This document shows, in pieces, positions 42,985 through 61,113 of a stretch of 64,000 nucleotides of DNA. A program made the position numbers and the translations under genes. Below the pieces are notes generated by a model. The model was not told the origin of the DNA. It worked only from the letters and a program-made list of their open reading frames with translations, and ran no database searches. Each line of letters starts with the position of its first letter. Position 1 is the stretch's first letter. Source of the stretch: Oryzias latipes (taxonomy: Eukaryota > Chordata > Actinopteri > Beloniformes > Adrianichthyidae); assembly GCF_002234675.1 (NCBI RefSeq), contig NC_019866.2:19947311-20011310 (forward strand), given 5' to 3'.

Positions 42985-43091
42985 ACTGTCAGTCACAACA
43001 GTGTTTACATCTCGAGACTGAGCAGAGTTTAGCCCCTGACCTTAGTCCTTTGTCTCCCAGGATGAAATGGAAACCTTAACCATAAGTACAA

Positions 43092-45650
43092 ATGCCTTCA
43101 AACTTTAAAGAAGAAGGTAAGTTTTTGTTTTTATTCATCTTCTACCGGTACCTGTTTTTTTTATCATGTTGTTAGTATCTGACCCACTTAGTTAAATAAC
43201 TGAAGTTTTTAGTGCAATTTCTAACGATTATATGTGTTCAAACTCGACCTTTACATCTGAAGTTTGACTGAATGGCCTCGTTAAGCGTTGTTATGAATGA
43301 AGTAATGAATAGTTGGTGTTTTAGGCCTTCGTGTTTGAAGCTAATTGTTTGACTTTTGTGTGCAGAACCGTCCGGAACCGCGGACAGCATTTATGCTAGT
43401 TCACAAGATAGAGGCGCGTGACGCTAACCCAGAAAAACCCACCAAGTTCTCTCTCCCTTAATCACTAAATCACTGTAATGAAAATAAAAGAAAAACGAGT
43501 CTACCAATCAAATTTAGAGCCTCGGTTATTTTAGTGCAGGATAAGCTAAATGGTGTACTCCATATGTGTAATTATTGGAGTATTACTTTGTGTAATGCAG
43601 TTATTGAAACAAGAAAAAAACAAAATTTCTGCATTTTTTTCCAATTAAAGTGTAGAAATGCTTCAGCTGTTTTCACAAACTAAGTCAGTATTATAGCTGG
43701 TGTTTGTTTCTGTTGGGATTAAGCTTTTATAAGACAGCTGTGAAAATGGATGAACTATTTTACAAAATAAAAATGTCTCTTCTAGTTTTTCCTGCAGGTG
43801 AACAGAAAGTGAAAGAAGAACCTGTTGACATGGAGGTGGACGAAGAAGGTAAAACCTTAAGCAATGAGGAAGTCAGACTCGTCCTCATTGGGAAGACTGG
43901 ATCTGGGAAAAGCGCGTCTGGGAACACCATCCTGGGCCGCAAGCAGTTCCTGTCGCAGATCAGCGCCAGCTCTGTCACACGGATCTGTGAGCTTGGTAGC
44001 GCTGAGGTCATGGTAGAAGAGGACACAGAGGAAGATGGACTGGCTGCCAAAAAGGAAAGTAAGAGGAGAATTACAGTGGTGGACATGCCTGGTTTTGGAG
44101 ACACTCACCTCACTGAGGAGGAGACTCATGCAGAAATAGCCAAGTGTATTTCCATCTCTGCGCCTGGTCCTCATGCTTTCCTCCTGGTTGTGCCAGTAGG
44201 ACGATATACAGACTGTGAGGACCAGGCTGTTTGCCAGTTGATCAAGATCTTTGGAGAAGCTGCTGTTCTTCATCACACCATCATCCTTTTCACTAGAGGG
44301 GATGACCTGGAAAACATGACGATTGAAGATTATCTGGAGACTGCACCAGCTGGCCTCAAAGCTCTGATTGCAAGGTGTGGAGGAAGATACCATGTCTTCA
44401 ACAACAAAGATACCAACAACTCAGTGCAAATACAGAAACTACTGTTGAAAGTGGAAAAATTGGTTAAGCAGAGTAACAGAGGGTTTTATAGTAATGAGAT
44501 GTTTTTAGAGGCAGAGGCTGCCATCAGAGACGAGCAGACGAAATTGCTAAAGGAGCGAGGGCCTGCAGATGATTCAGATCAGGACGAGAATACACTACCA
44601 AAACGAAGAAAACAAGATTTGGAGCCAAATCATAGAGAGGAATCTGGTTTTAGGGTGGAAAGGTGGACAGAAGAAAGAAGAGATAACCCCTTTTCTCCTC
44701 TGAGAGGAAATGTTAGAGGCCGACATCAGGGTGGGAGCAGGTCGGTCAGCCAGCGGCGGACTCTTCGTTCATCCTTGGGTCGCATCAGAAGGGAAGCGGC
44801 TCTTTCTCCAAAGGTGCTGGAGAAAATTAAGATCCTGGTGGCCTCTGGGGCCACAGGCATGGCAGTGGGGGCTGCATTTGGAGCTGCCGTGCCGTTAGCT
44901 GCTGCAGCTGGAGTCTCTCTTGTGGGCAGTTCTGTTGGTTTTGCTGCCAGTCAGCTTGCTGGAATGTCGGTTGCAGGAGGTACGGGTATTGGGAAAGCGG
45001 TTGGTGCGATTGTGGCTGCAGCCTCAGGAAAAACTGCTGTGGCGTTAGGTGCAGCTACAGGTGTGGTTGTGGGCGGGTCCATCGGAGCTGTTGCTGGTAC
45101 TGAGGCTCTCGGCCCTCAGGAGGGCGCCCTAGATGCCCTTCAGCAAGTCAGTTTAGTAGGAGCGTCTGCTGTGGGGGTTGCAGCAGGTTTAGGTTGCACC
45201 TTGGGAGCTGGTGCAGCTTTAGGTGCAGCTCTGGAGGGAAGCAGCTTTAGTGCTGCAGCTCTCAGTGGAGCTGAAACTGCAGCTGTCGGAGCAGCAGATG
45301 CCGGCTCTGCAGCTGCAGCTCAGCTAACTTCAGCTGTGGCAGAACATGCAGCAGGCTCTGCTGGAACCATATCTGCAGGGACTCATCAGGGCACCTTTGC
45401 TGTGGCTCAGGATTTAGCTGCAAATGTTCCGGTGGTTGCTAGGACTGGCAGTGAGCTACAAGGATGCAGAGTAGCTACAACTTCTCGCCTTTTGAACGCA
45501 GTGGCTGAGATTGGAAAAGCTGCAGCAGGCTTCGCCCTGGCTGGAGGTCTGGTTGTGAAGGTGGTGAAGGAAAAAGTCAGAAGTTGTACAGGAACAGCAG
45601 GAACCAACTACTCTGAGAAATCATCCTATGAAGTCTACTGGAACAAATAA
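43092..45650 (+). CDS. GIMAP/AIG1-family GTPase with Ala/Gly-rich hydrophobic C-terminal region
   Basis: Two coding exons, 43092-43116 and 43798-45650, give about 625 residues. The start ATG (MPSNFKEEG) is chosen because exon 1 joins in phase across gtaagt/cctgcag. Residues 34-230 are an AIG1 G domain: P-loop GKTGSGKS at 40-47, switch DMPGFGDT at 104-111, FTRGDDLE at 173-180 with the GIMAP-style TRGD in place of NKxD, and FNNKD at 209-213. A charged linker follows. From about residue 355 to 605 the protein is dominated by Ala, Gly, Ser and Val, with repeated small-residue spacing (GAAFGAAVPLAAAAG, GGTGIGKAVGAIV, GVVVGGSIGAVAG), then a basic end. GIMAPs are membrane-tethered GTPases of lymphocytes and other cells, usually 200-350 residues, and teleosts have many. 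The length, the glycine-zipper-like C-terminus and the location are unusual. N-terminal VKEEP fits a SUMO acceptor consensus. Membrane insertion or self-assembly of the tail is inference. An in-frame ATG at 43704 lies in the intron and is not the start. Confidence 0.85.
43117..43797. other. Intron of the GIMAP-like gene
   Basis: 681-base AT-rich intron with a gtaagt donor and ttttcctgcag acceptor. Its last ~94 bases stay open in the frame of exon 2, which extends the apparent reading frame into the intron. Confidence 0.75.
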
Positions 45651-46260
45651 ATTCAAGCTAGGAGTCCAATTTTATGCAGTGGAATCATATTCATTTCTTG
45701 TGTACATATGATAAGTACATGCAGTGGCTTTCTCTCACTTTTAAGTTTTCAAATTGTTAGTAAGTTGAAGTGATTCACTAGAAGCTGTTTGCTTGAAACA
45801 AACAGAATTTGTACCCCAAAAAAACTATAATCTGAAGAGATTTTGGTTTGCTATTTAGATAAATACAAATATGATCAATATTATGTGTAATCATGTCATG
45901 AAAATAAACTCAAGGAAAAATAAACACTTGATTATTTGCACTCACAGATGACAGTGGGTGTTTGTACTACACTGTCTAACATTTATTATATAGCCCAAAC
46001 AGGAGCTTTGGACTTCTGTTCCTACCTCTGGTTTGGACCATCTAGAACCAGGAAATTATTTTTAAAATTTATTATTCTTATGTTTCCTAACAGATAAACA
46101 TGCACTTCTTTAGTTTTCCTACATTAACGATTATGTATTTTTCAAATGACTGATTTAATTCTGTTTACCAACTGGCATTTACCGTTAAGTGTTTTTTGTT
46201 ACCATTTCTCCACATAATGGAACAAAAGTATTTTAAGCACAATATGCACTAAATAATAAA
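45651..46260 (+). other. 3' untranslated region of the GIMAP-like gene
   Basis: AT-rich region after the stop. AATAAA occurs at 45903-45908 and 45919-45924, and further hexamers follow near 46254. The first pair gives a 3' UTR of about 270 bases. Confidence 0.6.
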
Positions 46261-47399: not shown

Positions 47400-47852
47400 A
47401 ATCAGACTCTCCATTGCTCCTGTTTCCTTTATAAAGACAGGGGGCGCGGTTTATTCAAATGACACGCAGGCTTCTGATGGTTGACGTGCTATCAGACCAC
47501 GGTAAATCCCGCTCTGTCATTGGTCACTGATGACTGGTCCCATGACAAGAACAATTAGGTTTCCACCAATCAGATCCCGGCTTCAGCTCCGGAGTATGTT
47601 TGTGAATGACGTAATTAGCGTAAAACAAGATGGCGTCGCCTTGGCTGTAAATCGATGTAAAAGTGTTTATCGGAGTAAAAGTCAGCCTCTTTTGGCGGTT
47701 TATTGTTGTGTTACGACTACTTCGATACGGAACAAATATATCTAGCCGGTAGCTGAGCTGTAGGCAGGGCCCCTTCAGAGGAGGCGGTGGTTTGTGAGTG
47801 TCGTGTCCGGCAACCCCCGGCGGGAGAGTGCCGGAGAGCTGCTGCTGTCAGG
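47400..47852 (+). promoter_or_regulatory. srebf2: SREBF2 promoter and 5' untranslated region
   Basis: GC-richer block directly upstream of the SREBF2 start. It holds an inverted CCAAT box (attgg, 47519-47523), a direct CCAAT (47566-47570), a YY1-like aagatggcg (47627-47635), and a weak sterol-regulatory-like atcagaccac at 47491-47500 that matches 8 of 10 bases of ATCACCCCAC. In mammals the SREBF2 promoter pairs such a site with an NF-Y CCAAT box for self-activation. The transcription start is not determined. Confidence 0.55.
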
Positions 47853-50800
47853 ATGGACACCGGAGAGTTCATCTCCACCGTGGAGAACATGGACCCGAGC
47901 TTAACGGAATTAGGGGACGAATTCACTTTAGGAGACATTGACGGTGAGTTCACTGGGTTTTGTCAACACACTCAGGTGTTGTTATTATTTTTTAATTATA
48001 GTAAGTGTCCGTCTTCCACATATGTTCTAAGCCTAGAAAACTAAGATATTTCAGTAGCTCTTAACACACAGGGTTTATTATTAATTTAGTTTGTAGCTAC
48101 GTTTATTTTTGTGGGAAATACACGTAAACTTGTCTCTGCTTTTCCGTTTCCTGTTGGATTCATTCAATATTTTACTAAACAAAAGCTATTTTTCGTTATT
48201 TGTTAAATTAAAGGTGCAAAAAAAAAAAGCTAGAGATTAAAAATGACTAGAAATTCACCCAAACTAGTGTCATTTTTCAAAACTGACGTTTTTTTAATGA
48301 GGCAAAGCGGCTGTCGAGGAATACCAGTCAGTCAAAACTGAGAAAGCATCACCTGTGTGTTTATTATTTATATAAAACATGAAGGAAGATAGCATAAAAA
48401 TTATAATATAATATTAGCAGAACATAGGCTTCTATTGGTAAAGCAAAATGAAAAATATTTAAAGAAAGAACAAGACAGTTGAAAAGGTTGTGGTCGTTAT
48501 TTTCCAGCTTTATTATGAAGGAATTACTTAAGAATTGCACTGATGTCTGCATTCCTTGCGTTTTTTGATAGGTAAGACAGATGTGTTGTTACTATTGTCA
48601 AAGGCAAATCTGTCAGAGGGTAAAAGGACAGAGCTTTTGGTTGAACACTAGTCACCAGATCCCCATTAGTGTGGAATCTCATTCAATGTCACCAGACTGG
48701 ACTGATGAAATGTGGGTGTGTTCTACATAGAGAACTATAGAATGGTACTAGGTGTATAACATTATTATGAGGCAGAGACCATCAAGATGCAGTGAGAAAC
48801 TGCTCTTTTATTTTGAAATTCTGTCATTTTGGTTTTTGCTTCAATGCAAACTGGTGAAGAAACATTAAAGCACCCACCAGCAGAACATCTATCATTGAGT
48901 TAAAACAAACAAACCTTCTAAAGCTCTCATCCCTTACATGCATTTAAATTCTCAAAGCCTTTTGCTCACATTAGAAGTCATTTTTTGTTTTTTGATTGTA
49001 TGATTAAATCCTTGGCTTCCCTTCCCTGTCTTTTAATCTTTTCGACTGTTGGTTACATAACGTATTTTCTTTGCTCTCAGCTCCCCCTTTTGATGGATTT
49101 ACTTTGTGTCTGCTTGTTTAAAGCTTTGGAGGCTCAGAGAAGTGTTGTCCCGTCTGCTGCACAGTACGGATGAAGACGAGCATGTCTGCATGAGAATGCG
49201 TTCAAAAAACTGCTTTATGTCTAACTTTCACACCATTATTGCGTTTGTTGCACCTCTTTAAACACACGCTCAGAGATGAAGTTGTTTATTTTAAGACACA
49301 AAGGATCATTGCTTTATACGCTTTGTTTACTGTCTGCGTTCCCCCGGCAACAACCAAAAAAAGGGCAAACAACATTTTTCCGATGTGCCACAGGTGACCG
49401 GCGGAGTCTGAGGACTCACTGCCCATCGTGACATTTTCTGTAGGAGTAGGAAAACAAGTTATTTTAAGATCAAATGATGCTACAAAGCCATAAAATTGCA
49501 AACAAAATGACCAGTTTTAAAGATATAGAAGAAAAGGACTTCTTCCAAATGCTTTTATAAATTGCAGATCTTAGCCAGATTGTCTTAAAATGATTAATTT
49601 ATACCTTAACAGAAGCTTTGTCATCCTTCTTATTAAAAAAATCATTTGAAGGATTTGTTTGTTGGACTTTCAAAATGTATGTGATCCTGCTAAAAATGAA
49701 TTTCCTATATTTAGATTATAAAATTTACATTATACATTTATTAGAAACACAAACTGCTGTCATTTGTAAAATATTGATTCAACAAGATTTTAAAGCTAAC
49801 ATTTGTGAAATACTCTGTCAGTTTAAAGAATTTATGAGATTTATTTAAACAAGATTATACTTTGATTTAAAAGTTGTTTTATTTTTTACAATCTTGTTTT
49901 GTATTTTGGCCCAAATTAGCTTATTCATGAAACAGGTTTTACACAAAGCAGTTGTTAGATTATTCAAAAAAGGTGAAAGTTGCACTTTTAAAACTGTTAA
50001 TGCTTTTTTGCATTTTAAATATTTTTATTCTGTTTTTGTTAATTTGCTCATTCTGGTCCCAACCTCCAAATTTCAGTGTGTCTGTATTCGCACACGTGGT
50101 TATAAATTGAAACCCTGTTACGGAAGCATATTTTTAATCCTCAGTTGTTGTTTTTTTTCCAAGAAACTTGATTGAAGGAATATTTTTGAATAATGGCATG
50201 ACAAACAGTGAAATAAATATTTCTTATTCAAACTGTCATGATAAGGTATGAAAAAAAAATTGCATTCATTTTTTTGTTTGCTGATGATACTGCTGTTTCA
50301 GGAAACAACTTCAGAAAGTTAACAGAAAATTGAAGAAAATATTTTCTACTCAAAGTGCTTTCTTCAGAAGGAATTTTGTTGGTCTATTACACCAAATGAA
50401 GTTGGTAGTTGTAATTGGTTTACAGCTTTTAAATAAGGTACTTTGTGTATAAAAAAAAATTCACACTGTTTACATTCTGCTTAAATATGTAAATTATGTT
50501 TTAGGGGTTGCATGGAGGAAGAGGGAAGCATAGATTGTTGTCCAAACCTTAAAATTCTGTTTATTTTAAATATCTTTTATGTGATAGTTTAACACGTGGG
50601 TAGCTTTTGTTCAGCTTTTTTTTGTCAAATATCATGCTCCTGTTCACTCATGGTTGGTTTGTTCCTGTTTGGGTTTGACTTTTAGGTCATTTGAAGAAAT
50701 GGTAATTCAACATAACTGAATAAAACATTTGAAGTTTTCCCTAAAATCATCGTATAGACGGGTCATTTTATGTTTTAGGAGAATTCCAAGCACAGAAACC

Positions 50801-53800
50801 ATATTTTTTGCTGCACATTGGTGGTTTATTGTTCCCCATCAGCTGTGTATTATTGTATATCAGGACTGTAAAATCTGCAACAAATCGAATTTATAGATGT
50901 AAACTTAGCATTTAAAATCTTCATTGAAATCATTTCAAATCTTAATCTAAAATGCAGGTTGTTATTTTTAGTCTGGTTTGTTCTGCTAATGCAAATTAGT
51001 CTGTTTAGCCGTACAATTCCATCAAATTACTGTTTATTTCAGCACAAACTAAACATCTAAAGTCACAGTTCTGGCGTCTTTACTAAATGATTAATCTGAT
51101 CTACAATTTCCATCACAAAGAGAGAAAGTTTTAAATGTGACATTTGCCTATTTCTTTTTAATTAAAGCAATCTAACAATGAATAAATTATTTAGAGAGAG
51201 CTGAGTTGTAATGATCAATTAATCAAAATGTTATCAATCTTCTGTCAGAAAATGCAGTAAATATTAACTATTATTTGAAAACAATTGATTCATATAATTT
51301 CCTGAATTTCTTGAGCTAAATGAAGAAGTTTCTGATCGTTTTTAATGCAGGAGTTTATCATTTTACTCATGAAAAGTCGACCTTTGTTCAGTTTTATTCA
51401 CTCGTAAATTTGCATACATTTGCATAAAGCACTTAAACAAACTTTACTTTAAGCAAAACTGGTTCTATGGTAGATTTTAGGCAAACAAATTTAGCACTTT
51501 ATTATCTTTGTAGATGGCTTAGACATTTCATATATAATTATTAAGTTGGCCCTTTAAGAAAAAACTCTGTGGTGCTGAAAAAAGAGAAATCCCCAAGACG
51601 ACGGCATGCAGCTCCTCACAGCTGCGTCCATGGATGCCTTGTCGTTTGCATTGTCCTCTTCGCTTCTTTGCAGCAGGACTAAGTTCAAGGCTGCAGAGCA
51701 GTAGTGACCCTGACAGTTGAAGCCACGCGCTCCATCTGTGGCGTGGGGACCGTCACTGTCACGAACCCAGAGGCTGTTTGCCAAAGTCTTCAAGCTCCAA
51801 AGTCTGCTGAGTTGCACAACAGCAGTTCTTTGACAAATGTTGTGCTGGAATTCTGAAACATTTTTGTTGTGACTCTACTGTGGGTTGAATGAATGAATGA
51901 ATGAATGAAGGAATAAATGAATGAAGGGAATGAATGAAGGAATAAATGAATGGATGAATGAATAATTTATTTTTTTAAATTGATTCTTAATTATTAGATC
52001 CTTGTTTAATTATTTAAAACAGAATTTTTGCAGCTGTAGCTTGAATCGAGTTGCATTTAGTCAGTTATTGTGTTCTGGAGTGGTTCATCAGACACATTTA
52101 TGGAGACTGGAGTGACCTCCCTCCAACCATATCACCCCACATTTCCTCTAAGGTTAATCAAGGATACCTGTGGAGGCTGCTTTTTATGGATAGGTTATGA
52201 ACAGTAGCTCTGTTTATGTGTCGGTTCAAGGTCACATCAGGAACACGTGCAAACGCTCTTCGTCTTGTGCAACGAGCTTTATTTAAAACTACCTGGAGGC
52301 AAATCCACATTCATTTTCATAGCATTTTGAGCTTAAAGAAATTCCGTTTTCTTTATTTGTTTTAGTTGCATCTAGTGAAGGAAATGGTCGTTCTAATCTG
52401 AGTTTAAATAAGTGTAAGGCCTTAATGTTTTGATGCAATGTTTGTTTCTCTTCAGAGATGCTGCAGTTCGTCAGCAACCAGGTGGGAGACTTCCCAGACC
52501 TGTTTGAGGACCACATGACCCAAGCGGGCTCCCTGCAGAGCAGCGGCGCCGGCTCCGCCCCTCAAGCAGCCGCTCAGACCCATCAGACTCCACCTGCAGC
52601 CGTCTATCAGAGTCCTAACCCGAGCCTGGCTTCCTCCCAGTCTCTCTCTCCTCAGTGTGTACCCCCCACACCTCCTCTCACTCCTGCACAGTCTCCCCCC
52701 ACCATCCCAGCCGCCACAGTACAGCAGCACCAGGTGACGCGCAGTCCTCCGCTGCTGCAGCCGCGGCCTCCGGCTGTCCAACCCATCCAGCCTCAGCCAC
52801 AGCCGACGGCCCAACCAACAATCCAGGTAGAAACTCTGGAGACTCTATTCCAAATCCTTCGAGACGCATGAAAGTGTTGTTGAATAACAGACTGTTTGCT
52901 TCGCTGCAGGTGCACACTCAGGGCGTTCCTGTGCAGACTCACAGTTTCCCGGTCCACACCCTGGTTCAGACCCACAGCCAGACCCCCCTCCCCATCCAGA
53001 CGCAGGCTCCACAAACCGTCATGATTGCCTCTAATGCCGGACAGTCCCGTTTTATCCAGAACTCCGTCATTTGCCATCAGAGCCCAGGTCATAGTTTCCA
53101 AGGTGACTACAAAGGGAGATGCTGTTTGCATGAAGTTCAGACTTTAAAAGAGTCTCCTTTATATTTCTAGTCCTAGCTGTCCTTATGGGTTGTCGAGCTT
53201 CCACTTTATTGTGAAGGAAATGTTTTTTTTTTTAAATCTTAGTCTTGCAGCCACAAATGCAGAGCATCATGACGTCTCCCCAGCTGCAGCCAGTAACCAT
53301 TCAGCATCAGCGCGTTCTGACGCCCACTGGTCAGACCATCCAGACTCTCTCCACAGCGCCCACCACAGTGCACACCATGCAACAGCAGGTGCAACAAGTG
53401 CAGCAGGTGCCGGTAAGTAACTCCTCTGTTGTAACCAATAGGAAATATGTTTTCCTGTTTCACTCAGGGTTGGAATTTGTTTCCCTCCAGGTTCTGGTCC
53501 AACAACCTCAGATTTTGAAGACGGACTCTCTGGTTCTCACAACCCTCAAACCAGATGGAACACAGGTGTTGTCCACCATGCAGAACCCTGCAGGCATCAC
53601 CACCCTTACCACGCCCATCCAGAACACCGCTCTCCAGGTCCCGGTACATCTAGCACAGACCTCCTGGGTAAAATGCAGATGTTGTCCTTGAAAGTTTCGG
53701 CTGAACGCCTGATTTCTGTCCTCAGACTTTGATGGGAAGCAACATTCTGACCACCGTCCCGGTTATGATGGGAGGAGGAGACAAGCTGCCAATCAAACAG

Positions 53801-56800
53801 CTACAGGCAGCCTCCCCCAACGCTCCCGCCGGAGTCAGACCGAGCATGGAACAGAACCAAGGGATGGTAGGAGGCATGGGGCCTGGAGTGGTGGTTAAGG
53901 AGGGTGAGAGGAGGACAACTCATAACATCATCGAGAAGAGATACAGATCCTCAATCAACGATAAGATCGTGGAGCTCCGGGACCTGGTGATGGGCAGTGA
54001 TGCAAAGGTAGGACAGACAGGTTTAAAGGCTGTGGTGATGAAGAGCTGCTTTGAACCCCGCCCCCTCCTCCTCCTCTGTGTTGTGGTCAGATGCACAAGT
54101 CCGGAGTGCTCAGGAAGGCCATTGATTACATAAAGTACCTGCAACAAGTCAACCACAAGCTCCGGCAGGAGAACCTGGCTCTGAAAGTGGCGAACCAGAA
54201 GAACAGTGAGTGTTTGATCAAAGCTGAGTTCACGAGTCCACTTCCGACTGCGCTGACCTGATCTGTCTGTCCCAGAGCCCGTGACACTTCCTGAAGACGT
54301 GGAAATGAAGCAGGAAGTTGTGATGATGTCACCTCCAGCCTCAGATTCTGGTTCCGGTTCACCCCATCAGTACTCTCCTTACTGTGTGGACTCTGAGCCA
54401 GGCAGCCCCTTGCTGGATCATGATCAGGTGAAACACATGATAAGAGGATTAACCGATGCTCTGAGCTCAGTGATCACTGTTTTTTGATGCCAAGTGAACC
54501 TTCAGATCAGGAGTAAACCAACAGAAACTGCTTTAATCTCCCCCTTCAGGCCATGAGAGGAACTACATAAACACTGATAACAGGAGGTTAAGGTCATCAT
54601 CCTCTCAGTCAGACTTTCTTTTCCAAGTTTAAGTTTATTGCTTAAACACAGAGATTATTTTTATTTGAATGATCAACATCCTCCACCATTTTTTCCATGT
54701 GTATCCTTAATCTAAAAAAAAAAAGACTCTTAAAAAAAAAATCACGTATTGCGAATCAGAAGCAAAGTCTTCAGTCGGTCGGTAGGCGTCAGTGTTTTAG
54801 TGAACCCGTGTCTGGTCCCTCAGGTGAAGAGCGAGCCGGATTCTCCCTCATCAGTTGGAGTGATGGATCGCTCTCGGCTGCTTCTCTGTGCTCTGACGTT
54901 CTTCTGCCTGTCGCTCAACCCTCTGCCCTCACTGCTGGGCTCAGAGTCCTCCGGGACATCCGGCCCTCCTGCAGGCCATGGCCCATCAAGGACCCTTGTC
55001 TGGTTCCCAGCTCACACGCAGGACTTTGGTGAGCACATCCCCCGTTTATCTGAGGTCAACTACCTGAATTTAGTGACTTAGACCTCGTCTCATGTTTTCT
55101 TTCTCCTCCTCAGCGTCATGGCTGCGGTGTCTTGTGCCGTGGGTGATTGTGTGGGTGTTGAGTGGCGTGGGGGCAGTGTGGGGGTGTGTAAGGGTGCTGT
55201 ACCTGTGGGAGCCTGTGACACCCCTTCACTCGCCCAATTCTGTGTCCTTCTGGAGGCACCGCAAGCAGGCAGACGTGCACCTGCACAGGGTGAGCCAGAC
55301 TCATGAGGGCAGGATTTCTAACCCATTTTAGAGAAATTACAGTTTTGCTTTTTTTTCTGTTATTGGTGAAAAAATGAATAGACAATGTCATTTCCATTTA
55401 TTCCAGCAGGAAATGTCACACTTTACCCTCTTTGTCACCATTTCCCCCATGTCTCTCCTATCCTGCAGGGGGATTTTTCAGCAGCAATGGCCAGTTTAGA
55501 AACCTGCCTGTCCGTCTTGACCAGAGCTCTCCCCTCCTGCGGTCTGGACTTGCTCTGTTCTCTTTCCTGGAACCTGATTCGCTACTTATTGCATCGTCCG
55601 ACTCCTCTCGGCTGGTTGGTGCACCAAATTGGAGGAAAGCACGAAGGGGAGGAGTCCAGGACAAGCGCAAAAGACGCGGCGCTGGTTTACCACCGGCTGA
55701 GTCAGCTGCAGCTCACAGGTCGGTGTGGAAAACACCCAAACGCACTCAGAATCGTCTCAAAGAGTTTTGAAAGACGTTTTCAATCTTCTACAGGAAAGCT
55801 GCCTCAGCGCAGCAGCCTGTGGGCTCTGTCGGTCTCTCTGAGTGCTGTCAACCTCAGCGAGAGCGCTCAGGGAAAGATGGCGCCGGCTCAGCTCGCTCAG
55901 ATTTACGTCACCGCAGCCATCGCCCTGCGCACTGTCCTGGGCCACCATCTCTCTTGTCTGCCTGTATGTTTGCTGCTCGGTTCTTTGTCTTGTAGTGATC
56001 CGATATGCTCTCATAGTTGGCATCACTCCTACTGTCTGTCTCCCAGGGTTACCTTTTGAGTTGTGCAGAGAGCGTGGCAAACCAGTCGGACACTAAGCCG
56101 GTACCAGACTGCCTGCGCTGGCTCTTCACTCCGCTGGGGAGGCAGTTCTTCCTGAGCTGCGAATGGTCGGTGAAGTCAGAGACCAGTGACAGCGTTTACG
56201 CCTCTCAGAGGGATCCAGGTTGGTTTCTGTCAACTAAAGTGAAAGCTCGCTCTGGAAGAGTCACAGTTTTCCTTCTTCTGCAGTTGATCCCATCGCCCAG
56301 CTGCACCGCTGTTTCTGCCGGAAGCTTTTGGAGAGAGCAGTTCACACGCTAATCCAGCCACAGAGCGATTCCGACACTAACTGTCGCAACTCTGACTTTG
56401 GGTAAAACACCTAGCAGCTGACCTTCACTTGAAGAAACCCTTTTTTTTGTCCATAACTAACAAATAACCCGCTTACCATGCAGAGAGTTTTCCAGCGCGC
56501 TGGAGTTCCTCGAGTTGTTGAACAGCTGCACGGAGGACTCCTCTTCAGCTCCTCCCCCTTTCTCAAGCTCACCTAACCAAACCGCCATGCCAGGTATGAC
56601 CAGCACGAGAGGAAACTTTATGAAGAAAGTAAAGCTGATATTCGATTTAGTTCAGCCAAAAAAGGCAAATTCAAAATAAGGTCATTACAAGGAGTTACTC
56701 AAAGAATGCATCAAACCAAACAAAAACCACAAGGATCCATTTGAGTCTTTATTGTTCCAAAAAAGCCAAATGTTCTTTACTGTATTTCAATCAAAACTTG

Positions 56801-59310
56801 TATAAGTGATAAACCCACAGAGCAGAGGACACAATCCCTGTACTGAGCGTGCAGATGGACAACAGCAGGGAGAAAAATTCCTTCCAGGAACGTCCAGCAG
56901 AACCAGGATGTCTCTGGATTCTGTAGCAGTGTCTTCATTAAAAAGCATGTTTAAAATGAGCAAATCAAGAAGCAAAGGAGTTCGAGTTCTTCTTTTTATT
57001 ACCTCCTTTTTACTGACCCGGCATTTCTGAAAGAAGTTATGATCATCTTATCCCATAATTCCTTGTGTTTCAACATTCAGAGCAAAAGCATAATTTACCG
57101 CTTTTTCAGCTTTAAAAAAAAAACATTCCTCCTGTAATTCTCTCAGCGCACAAATCTCCATTTGAATCTTTCTTGTCTTAAAGAAACTGAGGACAAACTG
57201 AGAATTTAAACACAAAAAGAGACATAAAACAACAATGGAACACCAGTTAAAGATAAAAGAAAAAAGAAGATGGAAACTGCCACGTGACATTTCCATTCAT
57301 GAATAAAAAATCAGACAGAATGAAGGTTTAATAAGCAGAGAACAAACACCCTGTGCTTGTTGGATCAACTGGCTTCAATAGGAAAGAGAATGGATTTAAT
57401 CATCTTAGCAGATAAATGTTGATTTATTACCAAAACAGAAATGTTCCCCTTTCCTCTCATTAAACTGATGATTGAAAGGAAATGATAATTGATCACTTTT
57501 TTAATGGCAGTGGGAGACCCGGTGTGCCGTTGGTGGGCTCTGGTGCTGAAGGCGGCCGTCCACTGGCTGCAGGGCGACGATGTTGCTGTGAAGTCACTTC
57601 TGACCGAAGCGGAGCGAATGCCGAGAGCTCTGCACGTCCTCGAGTAAGTGTCGGACAACAGAAACGACTAAAACAGGTTGTTCCTGGAGAGTTTTGCTCG
57701 ATCGGGGAATCACCGTTCGGACTTGCTGTGATGGGATGTTTGCTCTGTTTCAGCCACCCCCTGCCCAAAGCCGTGCTGCTTCTTTGTAAGGTGGTTCAGA
57801 TGAGCCTGTGCTCTCTGAAGGGAGAAGGCCTGATCGCCTGCCTGGCTCACTGCGACCGAGCCAGCGGGTACCTGCGCTCCAGTGTCTCTGTGCCGCTCGG
57901 CCTGTCTGGAAGCTGGCTGAACAAGGTCAGGTGCAACAACGCATCAGCTTTTCCTACACATCTGCCCTGTGATCAGAGGCTTTAATCTGAGATCATCGGC
58001 CGTCCTCTTCATGATGCATGTTGGATACGCTCCTAAAGGTCACCATGCATCAGCGTGTGGGGCTGTGTGAGTGTGTGCACAGTGTGGGTGGCAGGAGGTG
58101 GCTGTGGTGCATTGTAGTTGCATTGCATGATCCTGAAGCTGAGTGCGATGCGTCTGCAGTGCAATACAGAGGCCTCCCAGATCTGCACGCACCCGCTCCA
58201 CACCGCTCCACATGCCACGAAATGGCTCTTGATTTTTGGCGTGCATGCTGGTGCTGGTGATGGGATCGGCTTTGATCAAACTTCTGCAACAGCTTCAACA
58301 ACAAATGCATTCCTTCAAATGTGTTCTAATGGATGTGAAAAAGCAGACAGTAACTCCCCTTCTCTTTCTTTCTCCTCCAAGGGGGTGGAGCTCCTGGTCT
58401 GTGATCTCCTGTTGACCTTAAGGACCAGTTTATGGCAGCGAGCCGGCAGCAGTAACGGCGAACCTGGTCCAGCGCCTGGAACACAGCTGTCTGGTTTTCA
58501 AAGAGACCTGAGCGCACTCCGAAAGCTCACGCAGTGCTACAGGCAAGCGCAGCACAAGGTACTGCCTGGCTTTACGGAACCACACCTTTCTGATTGATTT
58601 CTGGGCAAAACCCGCCTCATAGGTGACTCACCTTCGTCTTTCTGTAAATGATTCATTCACAACAACAGGCCTCTTATCATTAACGAATTGTTCTTCACTG
58701 ATAGCAAATGTCCTCCATAGGTTCTCCATTATTTCCCATCATGCTCTCTATGTCACCACAGGGACATATTTAAAAAATGCATAATCTTGTGAATATTTTT
58801 GATGGTTTTTTGCTCAAAAAGAGGCTTAAAAAATGAAATTCTTGCTGCATCTGCACTTCTTCATCTGTGGTGTGTTTACGTCAGCTTTTCCTTCATGAAA
58901 CCACCGTGCGGCTGATGGCGGGAGCCAGCCCAACGAGAACCCATCAGCTGCTGGAGCACAACCTGCGCCGCAGGACCCACAGCTCATACTCAGCCGGTAC
59001 AACACCATCCGCTCTTCTTTAAGTGCAACATACTTTGGGATGTCACTAATCTGTCTTTTTTTTTTCTCCCTCACAATCTCTGCTGTTTTCAGAGGGTGAG
59101 TGCATTCTAGGTGAAAGGGAGAGAGCCCACGCCATTCTGCTCGCCTGCCGTCACCTCCCCATGCCCCTGCTGACCCCACCAGGACACAGAGCGCGCCTGC
59201 TGGCCGAGGCCAAGCGGACTCTGGAGCGCGTGGGAGACCGCCGGTCCCTGCAGGACTGTCAACAGATCCTGCTGCGCCTCAGCGGGGGCACCACCATCGC
59301 TGCTTCCTAA
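47853..59310 (+). CDS. srebf2: SREBF2, sterol regulatory element-binding protein 2
   Basis: Complete in 20 coding exons: 47853-47943, 52456-52826, 52910-53102, 53243-53412, 53491-53643, 53726-54007, 54091-54205, 54276-54427, 54824-55028, 55114-55289, 55469-55718, 55794-55963, 56047-56218, 56284-56401, 56484-56593, 57511-57643, 57754-57925, 58382-58558, 58885-58996, 59093-59310. All phases agree; 1,179 residues (human 1,141). An acidic activation segment ([31 protein letters not shown]) is followed by a Gln/Pro/Thr-rich region and the bHLH-zipper at about 388-455, with [19 protein letters not shown] including the SREBP-specific tyrosine 399. DRSR at 524-527 heads the first membrane helix, where site-2 protease cuts. 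A luminal loop (543-579), a second helix (~580-602) and the C-terminal regulatory domain that binds SCAP follow ([54 protein letters not shown]). It acts as an ER-membrane precursor that, when sterol is low, moves to the Golgi and is cleaved to activate cholesterol synthesis and LDL-receptor genes. The luminal RSVL motif is altered to RTLV (565-568). It hosts mir-33. Confidence 0.97.
47944..52455. other. SREBF2 intron 1
   Basis: 4.5 kb AT-rich intron. It holds a tetranucleotide repeat (gaat)n at 51887-51965 and a GC-richer patch at 51554-51817 that is open on the minus strand for 87 codons. No other gene or RNA recognised. Confidence 0.7.
51887..51965 (+). repeat. GAAT tetranucleotide microsatellite
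   Basis: Imperfect tandem gaat/gaag units (gaatgaatgaatgaatgaat) in SREBF2 intron 1. Confidence 0.9.
54428..54823. other. SREBF2 intron 8
   Basis: 396 bases with A-rich runs near 54715 and 54733. Nothing else recognised. Confidence 0.7.
56594..57510. other. SREBF2 intron 15
   Basis: 917-base AT-rich intron separating MPxxG-coding exon ends. No RNA or repeat recognised. Confidence 0.7.
58102..58169 (+). ncRNA. mir33a: mir-33 microRNA precursor in a SREBF2 intron
   Basis: The intron 57926-58381 contains gtgcattgtagttgcattgc at 58107-58126 (mature arm to 58127), identical to vertebrate miR-33a-5p. The flanks fold: 58102-58128 pairs with 58143-58169 with two mismatches (58107:58164 and 58118:58153) and some G:U pairs, and a loop of about 14 bases lies between. 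In mammals mir-33a also lies in an SREBF2 intron; it is co-transcribed with SREBF2 and represses ABCA1, NPC1 and fatty-acid oxidation genes. That position is kept here. The 3' arm (cagtgcaataca) differs from the mammalian star strand, although pairing is preserved. Confidence 0.95.
58559..58884. other. SREBF2 intron 18
   Basis: 326 bases, AT-rich, with no recognised feature. A short atgttctc/gttctccattatttcc stretch near 58715 shows no identity. Confidence 0.65.
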
Positions 59311-61113
59311 ACACATTTTGAGTTTTTCCTGTACATAAACCCGCTTTCCTCAACTACTTAAAAGTTGCAGTGCTGCAGCACCCCACCTTCTGGCCATTAG
59401 TGGTACTTTGAGCCTCTTTAGCATTGAGGGAGCCCGCTCTTCCCCCTTCCAATTCAGATCAGATCAAAACCGTTTCAGTTCTATGTTAAATTCAATCAAT
59501 CTTGGGACAAACAAGCAAACGGGTCCAAGAAACAGTGATATGAGAAAAGGGAACATTATCTAAAAGCTGCTCACTACTGAGCTGCAGGACACAAAAACGG
59601 ACAATCAGAGTCGGACAGAAGCTCAGAGCGTGCTGCTGTAACAGCTTTAGTTTGAGACTTTGAAGGGTTTTGCAGTTTTCTAGAGGAGACGGCAAACGTC
59701 TGAGTTTGGCTGTCCTACAGGATGCAAACAGGAAAGCTTACTAGCTGTGCAGTGCAGGGTAGTGTGTCTTTGTATCTACCTCAAACACTGTAAAATACCA
59801 GTGTTGTACTTCGACGCAAATGTCCTTTGTTACCCTCGGTTGCAGCTAAATTCCCATTTGTTGTTAGGACCGCTGGCCTGCCTCCCCCTGCTGGAGACAT
59901 GCAGCAGCTTTAAGAATTTGGCTCGCAGCTGCAGAAGCTGCAATCACGATGAAGGCCCACTGATGAAGGCTCCAGGGAAACCTTTGGACTTGACAAACAT
60001 TTACATAAGGGAGGGAAGCGCCCATGCAAAGGCCTGTTTGCACACAGGCACACAAATGCGTATGCGCATTACTTTTGATGTCGTTATGCTTGTATATACA
60101 TGTACAAAGGCAGATACGCGGTTCTAGATGTAACAGGAAGTTTTTCTGCTTCTGCTTGACACTCGTCTGTGCTTGGGAGGCTTCAGGTTGAATTCCTCCA
60201 AACTTTTTCCTCAGACGTTCACGTAAGGTTGCCTTCCAGCAGCAGCCGTGGTCGTTTACCAGCTGACTCCATCCAGCTGTTCAGCTTCATACGTTGAGTG
60301 TTTGGAAGGATGTTTGGAAACATGAAAACAAAAACGGATGAATCAAATTTTCCAAAAGGAGGTTCCTGCCTTGGAAGACTCTGAAGCAAAATGACCTTGA
60401 TGTTCTGTATTCATTCATGTTCTAAGCCGCTTTGTTCCTTTTGGGGTCACGGGGCTGCTGCTGCCTATCCCGGCCACTGGAGGGTGAAGGCAGGGGACAC
60501 CCTGGACAGGTTGCCAGTCTGTCGCAGGGCCACAAATCACACCGGTCTGATCTGACAGAGTTTGTCTTTTCAGATCTCTGTCCTGTTTTCTTTTATTTGT
60601 AATTGTTGACGTGTATGTGCCGCAGCACTTTGGTTGTTATTTTTCTTTGCTCAGAGTAATGTATTTAAAGGTATTGGTAATGTTTTTGTGGGGCGGTTTT
60701 GTTAAAGGTGGGCTTTTCTTTTTCTTTTTTTTTTGAAGAAATCATCTTTAGGATCAGAGGGGCATCTCAAAAAAGCTCTTTTTTTGTTTGTACATAACAA
60801 TTCTTCATCTAAAATGTAAGCTTTGTCTGCAGAACTCACTCCTATAGTTAATAATAAATAATGTTTGGAGATTTTAGGATCTATGGGTATACGGGCTGGA
60901 AATGTCAGGAATCAGTTTTCACGTCAAACTACAGTCAAAGGAACATAGAAAGGTTTAATCCGTTTGCATTCAAACTCTCTGACCGGTCAAGCGTCGGTCG
61001 TCAGCCTTTAACCAGTGCTTTTTTTTTTTTTTTGGTTTTCTTTGAAATTGTTACTTTATTTTTGTCTTTTGCCCTATCAAATGTATGTCTTTCTTTTAAA
61101 GTTTTATAATAAA
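59311..61113 (+). other. srebf2: SREBF2 3' untranslated region
   Basis: Long 3' UTR of up to 1.8 kb. The best distal polyadenylation hexamer is AATAAA at 61108-61113, preceded by T-rich runs. A reverse-orientation LINE-type tail is embedded at 60412-60545. Frames at 59747-60127 are not convincing genes. Confidence 0.6.
60412..60545 (-). repeat. LINE-type tail repeat, reverse copy in SREBF2 3' region
   Basis: Contains tttggggtcacggggctgct, tatcccggccactggagggt and acaccctggacaggttgcca, the complements of landmarks in the copies at 46425 and 63778. Confidence 0.8.

Follow-up and report, generated by a model that had tools for sequence, protein, structure and literature searches.

A predicted medaka GIMAP GTPase with a long, glycine-zipper-like hydrophobic tail

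The window analysed here, a 64,000-nucleotide stretch of the medaka (Oryzias latipes) genome (C8:19947311-20011310), contains a two-exon gene on the + strand (43092-43116 and 43798-45650) whose 625-residue product combines a predicted GIMAP-type GTPase domain with a hydrophobic tail of ~255 residues, the two sharing an exon and a reading frame. We give an even chance to the reading that this protein is a GIMAP GTPase carrying an enlarged, multi-segment glycine-zipper membrane module, which would make it a GTP-switched, membrane-inserting scaffold. In its favour are the intact GTPase motifs, the coding nature of the tail, its zipper-like periodicity and the zipper-like tails on paralogues; against it stand the modest hydrophobicity of the tail segments, the lack of a match to any glycine-zipper family and the zipper-less nearest relatives.

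The list of open reading frames for the window contains one at 43656-45650 (+), and splicing of a consensus intron brings an ATG at 43092 into phase with the exon 2 frame. The span 43092..45650 proposed in an earlier note on this DNA agrees with the resulting two-exon model of 625 residues. By eye, the ATG at 43092 lies in a weak context and is preceded by two ATGs of short frames, and the context of Met20 is stronger than that of Met1; the true start is possibly Met20 instead, and the GTPase domain and tail are unaffected either way. Within exon 2, neither AATAAA nor ATTAAA was found ahead of the stop region. ISRE-like motifs number 13 in the window vs 7.2 expected, a count reached by 4/100 shuffles. 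The features of the gene are:

43064..43073, + strand: ISRE-like GAAATGGAAA, 5' of the ATG; weak
43092..43116, + strand: coding part of exon 1, residues 1-8 and the first base of codon 9, given the ATG at 43092; GT donor and phase
43117..43797, + strand: intron 1, GTAAGTTT ... TTTTTCCTGCAG, with donor GTAAGT at 43117 and acceptor TTTTTCCTGCAG ending at 43797
43798..45650, + strand: exon 2, an open frame with the remaining part of the 625-residue protein, including the stop
43875..44525, + strand: predicted AIG1/GIMAP GTPase domain, residues 35-251 (Pfam PF04548, E 4.3e-56; PDB GIMAP4, E 1.6e-45; G motifs)
44568..44819, + strand: charged linker, residues 266-349, with 20 Lys+Arg and 14 Asp+Glu and KRRK at 277-280
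45903..45924, + strand: two AATAAA polyadenylation-like signals, 3' of the stop

Farther downstream, the + strand of the window at 47757-60000 holds a gene that is srebf2-like by its bHLH region, and an Rfam search places a mir-33 precursor at 58102-58169.

The GTPase domain is intact and belongs to the GIMAP/AIG1 family, as judged from its AIG1 Pfam score of 190 bits (cut-off 27) and from the presence of all motifs looked for: G1 GKTGSGKS at residue 40, G3 DMPG at 104, the conserved box LLVVPVGRYT at 137, G4 FTRGDD at 173 and G5/IAN RYHVFNNK at 205. With this AIG1 match (E 4.3e-56) and these motifs, the GIMAP-type G domain described in the earlier note is borne out. The closest solved structures in a PDB search are GIMAP4 and GIMAP7, with both of which the G motifs align. 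An Arg-rich stretch of the linker lies immediately ahead of the tail, and basic residues are found at both flanks of the tail, before it and near its end. Two short stretches would be odd in a membrane protein: an N-terminal, SUMO-like VKEEPVD (window 43800-43860) and the linker KRRK (residues 277-280), which resembles a nuclear signal.

The tail and the segments discussed within it are:

44820..45587, + strand: Ala/Gly/Val/Ser-rich hydrophobic tail, residues 350-605 (composition, glycine spacing, coding test)
44844..45023, + strand: possible first copy of an old internal repeat, residues 358-417 (60-residue diagonal, offset 104)
45036..45104, + strand: putative glycine-zipper core AVALGAATGVVVGGSIGAVAGTE, residues 422-444 (pattern common to paralogue tails; seven hand-chosen segments aligned)
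45156..45335, + strand: possible second copy of the internal repeat, residues 462-521 (60-residue diagonal, offset 104)

Residues 350-625 contain 71 Ala, 45 Gly and 32 Val, so that Ala and Gly make up 42% of this stretch, and charged residues are sparse (24/256 in 350-605 and 7/149 in 352-500). The tail DNA behaves as coding sequence: of its six frames a single one is open and the other five have 8-13 stops apiece, and none of 5000 first-order resamples stayed open; its codon-position asymmetry is 1.213 vs 0.211 +/- 0.069 in resamples, and its GC content is 0.68, 0.61 and 0.37 at first, second and third codon positions. Gly-Gly pairs at a spacing of 4 occur 14 times vs 6.9 expected from shuffles (z 3.1), and a spacing of 5 gives z 2.1; a comparable spacing signal was not found for Ala in the tail. 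The tail thereby shows the Gly-x3-Gly excess expected of glycine-zipper membrane proteins. The earlier note had described a low-polarity region with regular small-residue spacing, and composition, low charge and glycine spacing all agree with that description.

The top 19-residue segments of the tail reach a Kyte-Doolittle value of 1.83, whereas the G domain peaks at 1.47. Four tail regions, 352-393, 421-443, 458-487 and 577-598, have maxima (19 residues) of 1.65 to 1.83; further tail segments come to 1.3 to 1.5, like some in the G domain, and each 19-mer of the tail has a slightly positive mean insertion cost. AlphaFold2 run without an alignment on residues 330-625 returned helices at a mean pLDDT of 44.8, which is not usable.

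A search of the medaka genome (734 Mb, 25 contigs) with the whole protein (616-residue query) gave 45 places including the gene itself, and beyond residue 319 of this query the gene matched itself only. The tail alone matched itself and one other place, at E 2 and with two stops, which is a chance match. From 31 genome stretches we collected 47 open frames that match AIG1 or resemble it, the window gene excluded; some of them are exon fragments, others may be pseudogenes, and L037 (96 aa) is the truncated end of a frame that is also counted under L014. Searching C-terminal to the G domain for a low-charge segment with the pattern [GAS]-x3-G-x3-[GAS], we found it in 9/47 frames, two of which (L017 and L019) are by eye ordinary transmembrane pairs, leaving 7/47 with short zipper-like C-termini (L013, L016, L020, L022, L029, L030 and L032); the L016 tail looks frame-broken. 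Shuffled versions of these C-termini seldom contained such a segment (7/300 at most). By eye, the zipper stretches span ~20 to 60 residues in most of these paralogues and ~100 in L020. When hand-chosen core segments from the window gene and six paralogues were aligned, three glycines were invariant. Sub-threshold matches to Pfam glycine-zipper models were obtained for three of the five paralogue tails scanned (L013, E 6e-4; L032, E 0.0065; L030, E 0.45). The i+4 glycine excess, together with Gly-x3-Gly in seven paralogue tails, lends support to the glycine-zipper packing put forward in the earlier note.

The likeness between the window tail and those of its paralogues may be mostly one of composition. 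Compared directly with the window tail, those of L013 and L020 reach scores of 92 and 87, which 0/500 shuffles equalled, and because the reversed sequences still score 60 and 70, composition carries much of this likeness (L029, L030 and L032 lay outside this test). The window gene is, on the sequences compared, best described as an extreme form of an arrangement that recurs among fish GIMAPs and not as an isolated new system; since sister genes carry short zipper tails, the "undescribed system" of the earlier note is too strong. L029 (C1:10314602-10316095) has a long C-terminus in which several W/G-containing repeats, seen by eye, precede a glycine zipper, and L028 (C18:18755000-18759343) continues after its G domain for at least 1190 charged, coiled-coil-looking residues in a frame that reaches the end of the locus. 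On C4, L025 and L027 are two three-frame GIMAP clusters separated by ~40 kb; their domains are nearly the same, as if a segment had recently been duplicated.

A GTPase-domain tree of 40 rows, on which the window gene and the seven paralogues bore the zipper label, was built from matches of 150 to 300 residues, leaving out identical domains and L009_p4256; one L011 domain was restored. The label requires seven changes on this tree, at least three of them being forced by well-supported branches, and it clusters no more strongly than shuffled labels do (205/500 as low). Support is weak at most forks and the bootstrap had not settled, so the exact place of the window gene is unsure. Its nearest rows by path are L011, L010 and L014, which have no zippers and whose tails are long, charged and, by eye, coiled coil. 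Because zipper labels are scattered on the tree and the nearest relatives lack zippers, it seems that such tails arose or disappeared on several occasions; a single ancient origin followed by many losses is possible. The three nearest relatives end in CaaX-like boxes (L011, CTIL; L010, CVIL; L014, CVIQ), as does L018 (CCIQ), which has a long, charged tail that is also coiled coil by eye; these four sit on C9 and C1, and their C-termini suggest prenyl anchors on fish GIMAPs.

The whole tail had no match in Pfam, PHROGs or NCBIfam, and the Pfam glycine-zipper models (PF13488, PF13441 and PF05433) matched neither it nor any of six tail pieces at E 10. In the PDB the tail had no credible relative: four chains were returned up to E 10, and the best match, to a hydratase at E 0.01, seems to reflect composition. 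Pattern-based scans of viral and prokaryote contigs with the tail, and with the whole protein, yielded no relative. In the open-licence literature we found neither an account of such tails in work on fish GIMAPs nor a paper in which "GIMAP" and "glycine zipper" occur together.

Another reading, in which the tail would be low-complexity Ala/Gly sequence that has drifted in a single lineage, is soluble or disordered and has no membrane function, seems to us rather doubtful. The tail is unique in its own genome by the search made and belongs to no family, its 42% Ala+Gly (350-625) and moderate best hydropathy would fit such drift, and so would a loose DNA repeat family and a possible internal repeat. 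Yet long tandem DNA repeats are absent, the Ala and Gly codons are mixed, glycine is periodic, charge is nearly missing from 352-500 and paralogues show a similar pattern. Tandem Repeats Finder (minimum score 30) detected two short arrays only (scores 31 and 33), and a looser search detected a four-copy, 29-nt family, its other copies 69-72% similar to the reference, and one two-copy family; because the tandem arrays are so few and short and the loose copies have diverged, recent slippage-type expansion of the tail DNA is unlikely. The tail may also contain an old internal duplication at offset 104, for which the signal is no more than suggestive. This offset gives the best self-alignment of the tail, and at length 60 it is reached by 0/500 shuffles and 0/500 block shuffles; over lengths of 24, 30, 40 and 60, shuffles reached the best diagonal in 68, 13, 22 and 0 of 500 cases, another test gave weaker results (3/300 and 7/300), and the DNA of the two stretches is 47% identical. 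We regard as scarcely probable, and disfavour, a fusion of a GIMAP to an interferon-induced domain of the ISG12/IFI6 type, a comparison suggested in the earlier note. The ISG12/IFI6 family (PF06140) shares a small-residue hydrophobic composition with the tail, and local alignment to human IFI6 favours the fusion (z 3.0; 4/500 shuffles as high), the alignment to IFI27 being weaker (z 1.7; 39/500). However, PF06140 detects two human control proteins (E 4e-29 and 4e-20) but, up to E 10, not one of the six tail pieces, and a small ISG12 profile of our own scores 15.4 on the tail and 12.5 on the reversed tail, with 26/500 shuffles as high, so kinship is not supported.

A GTP-switched pore-forming or membrane-breaking effector, in which zipper helices would line an oligomeric channel in a pathogen-vacuole, lysosomal or mitochondrial membrane, is in our view unlikely. 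The tail could form several hairpins and far exceeds the length of an anchor, and one 100-residue piece has two Pfam matches far below cut-off, to bPH_10 and to Romo1 (E 0.14). The Romo1 match amounts to 13 bits, however, against a cut-off of 27.6, no pore former was matched in the libraries searched (Pfam, PHROGs, NCBIfam and PDB) and the AlphaFold2 model is not confident; a pore is possible, and beyond composition the tail shows no sign of one. At the opposite extreme, a single ordinary tail anchor, in which one hairpin (350-395 or 422-487) would insert and the remainder serve as a spacer, strikes us as very unlikely. It would accord with the short anchors of the GIMAP5 type (PMC8201404) and with the ~20 to 60 residues, by eye, of the zippers on most sister genes (~100 in L020), but the tail has four regions of similar hydropathy (~352-393, 421-443, 458-487 and 577-598).

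In the scaffold reading, the cytosolic G domain would bind GTP and dimerise or oligomerise, as GIMAP G domains do, and the basic linker would lie on the cytosolic face of the membrane. Within an intracellular membrane, the small-residue helices of the tail would pack together, both in the same subunit and between adjacent subunits, and the nucleotide state would control assembly of the membrane-bound scaffold. Because basic residues precede the tail and stand near its end, both tail ends may be cytosolic. Membrane insertion, hairpin topology, GTP control and an immune role are what we infer for this protein. According to PMC8201404, GIMAP1, 3 and 5 have hydrophobic C-terminal membrane anchors, GIMAP2 has a double hydrophobic segment, and GIMAP oligomers are proposed to act as membrane scaffolds; in rat cells, as reported in PMC13141973, GIMAP upregulation leads to lysosome fusion with the Toxoplasma vacuole. 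A GTP-switched scaffold with a multi-hairpin zipper is proposed because of these anchors and scaffolds (PMC8201404) and this lysosome fusion (PMC13141973).

Among known systems, GIMAP4, GIMAP7 and other vertebrate GIMAPs (PF04548) resemble the window protein in G1, G3, G4, G5/IAN and the conserved box, whereas the GIMAPs described in PMC8201404 end in a coiled coil, a transmembrane anchor or a double hydrophobic segment and not in a ~255-residue tail. The medaka paralogues L013, L020, L022, L029, L030, L032 and perhaps L016 likewise have AIG1 followed by a hydrophobic Gly-x3-Gly C-terminus, but with one or two zipper segments, and the likeness is that of the zipper pattern and not clearly more. 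Biomphalaria (snail) AIG genes form an expanded family with AIG1 and 1 to 3 transmembrane segments, although no glycine-zipper tail is seen in the part of PMC7053062 used, a comparison by description alone. The glycine-zipper Pfam families share with the tail a glycine at each fourth residue of a hydrophobic helix, but do not match it.

More speculatively, and we think improbably, fish GIMAPs would be a modular family of membrane effectors that have repeatedly swapped C-terminal membrane modules (zipper hairpins, transmembrane pairs and CaaX-like boxes on coiled coils). The window gene would then be the most extreme of them, its product a multi-hairpin zipper gated by GTP that would self-assemble in pathogen or organelle membranes and permeabilise or remodel them. 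For several GIMAPs, the C-terminal anchor decides which membrane is reached (PMC8201404). Fish paralogues with differing C-terminal modules offer a natural swap set in which to ask if the target membrane is chosen by the tail and if packing of the zipper links the GTP state to assembly at the membrane.
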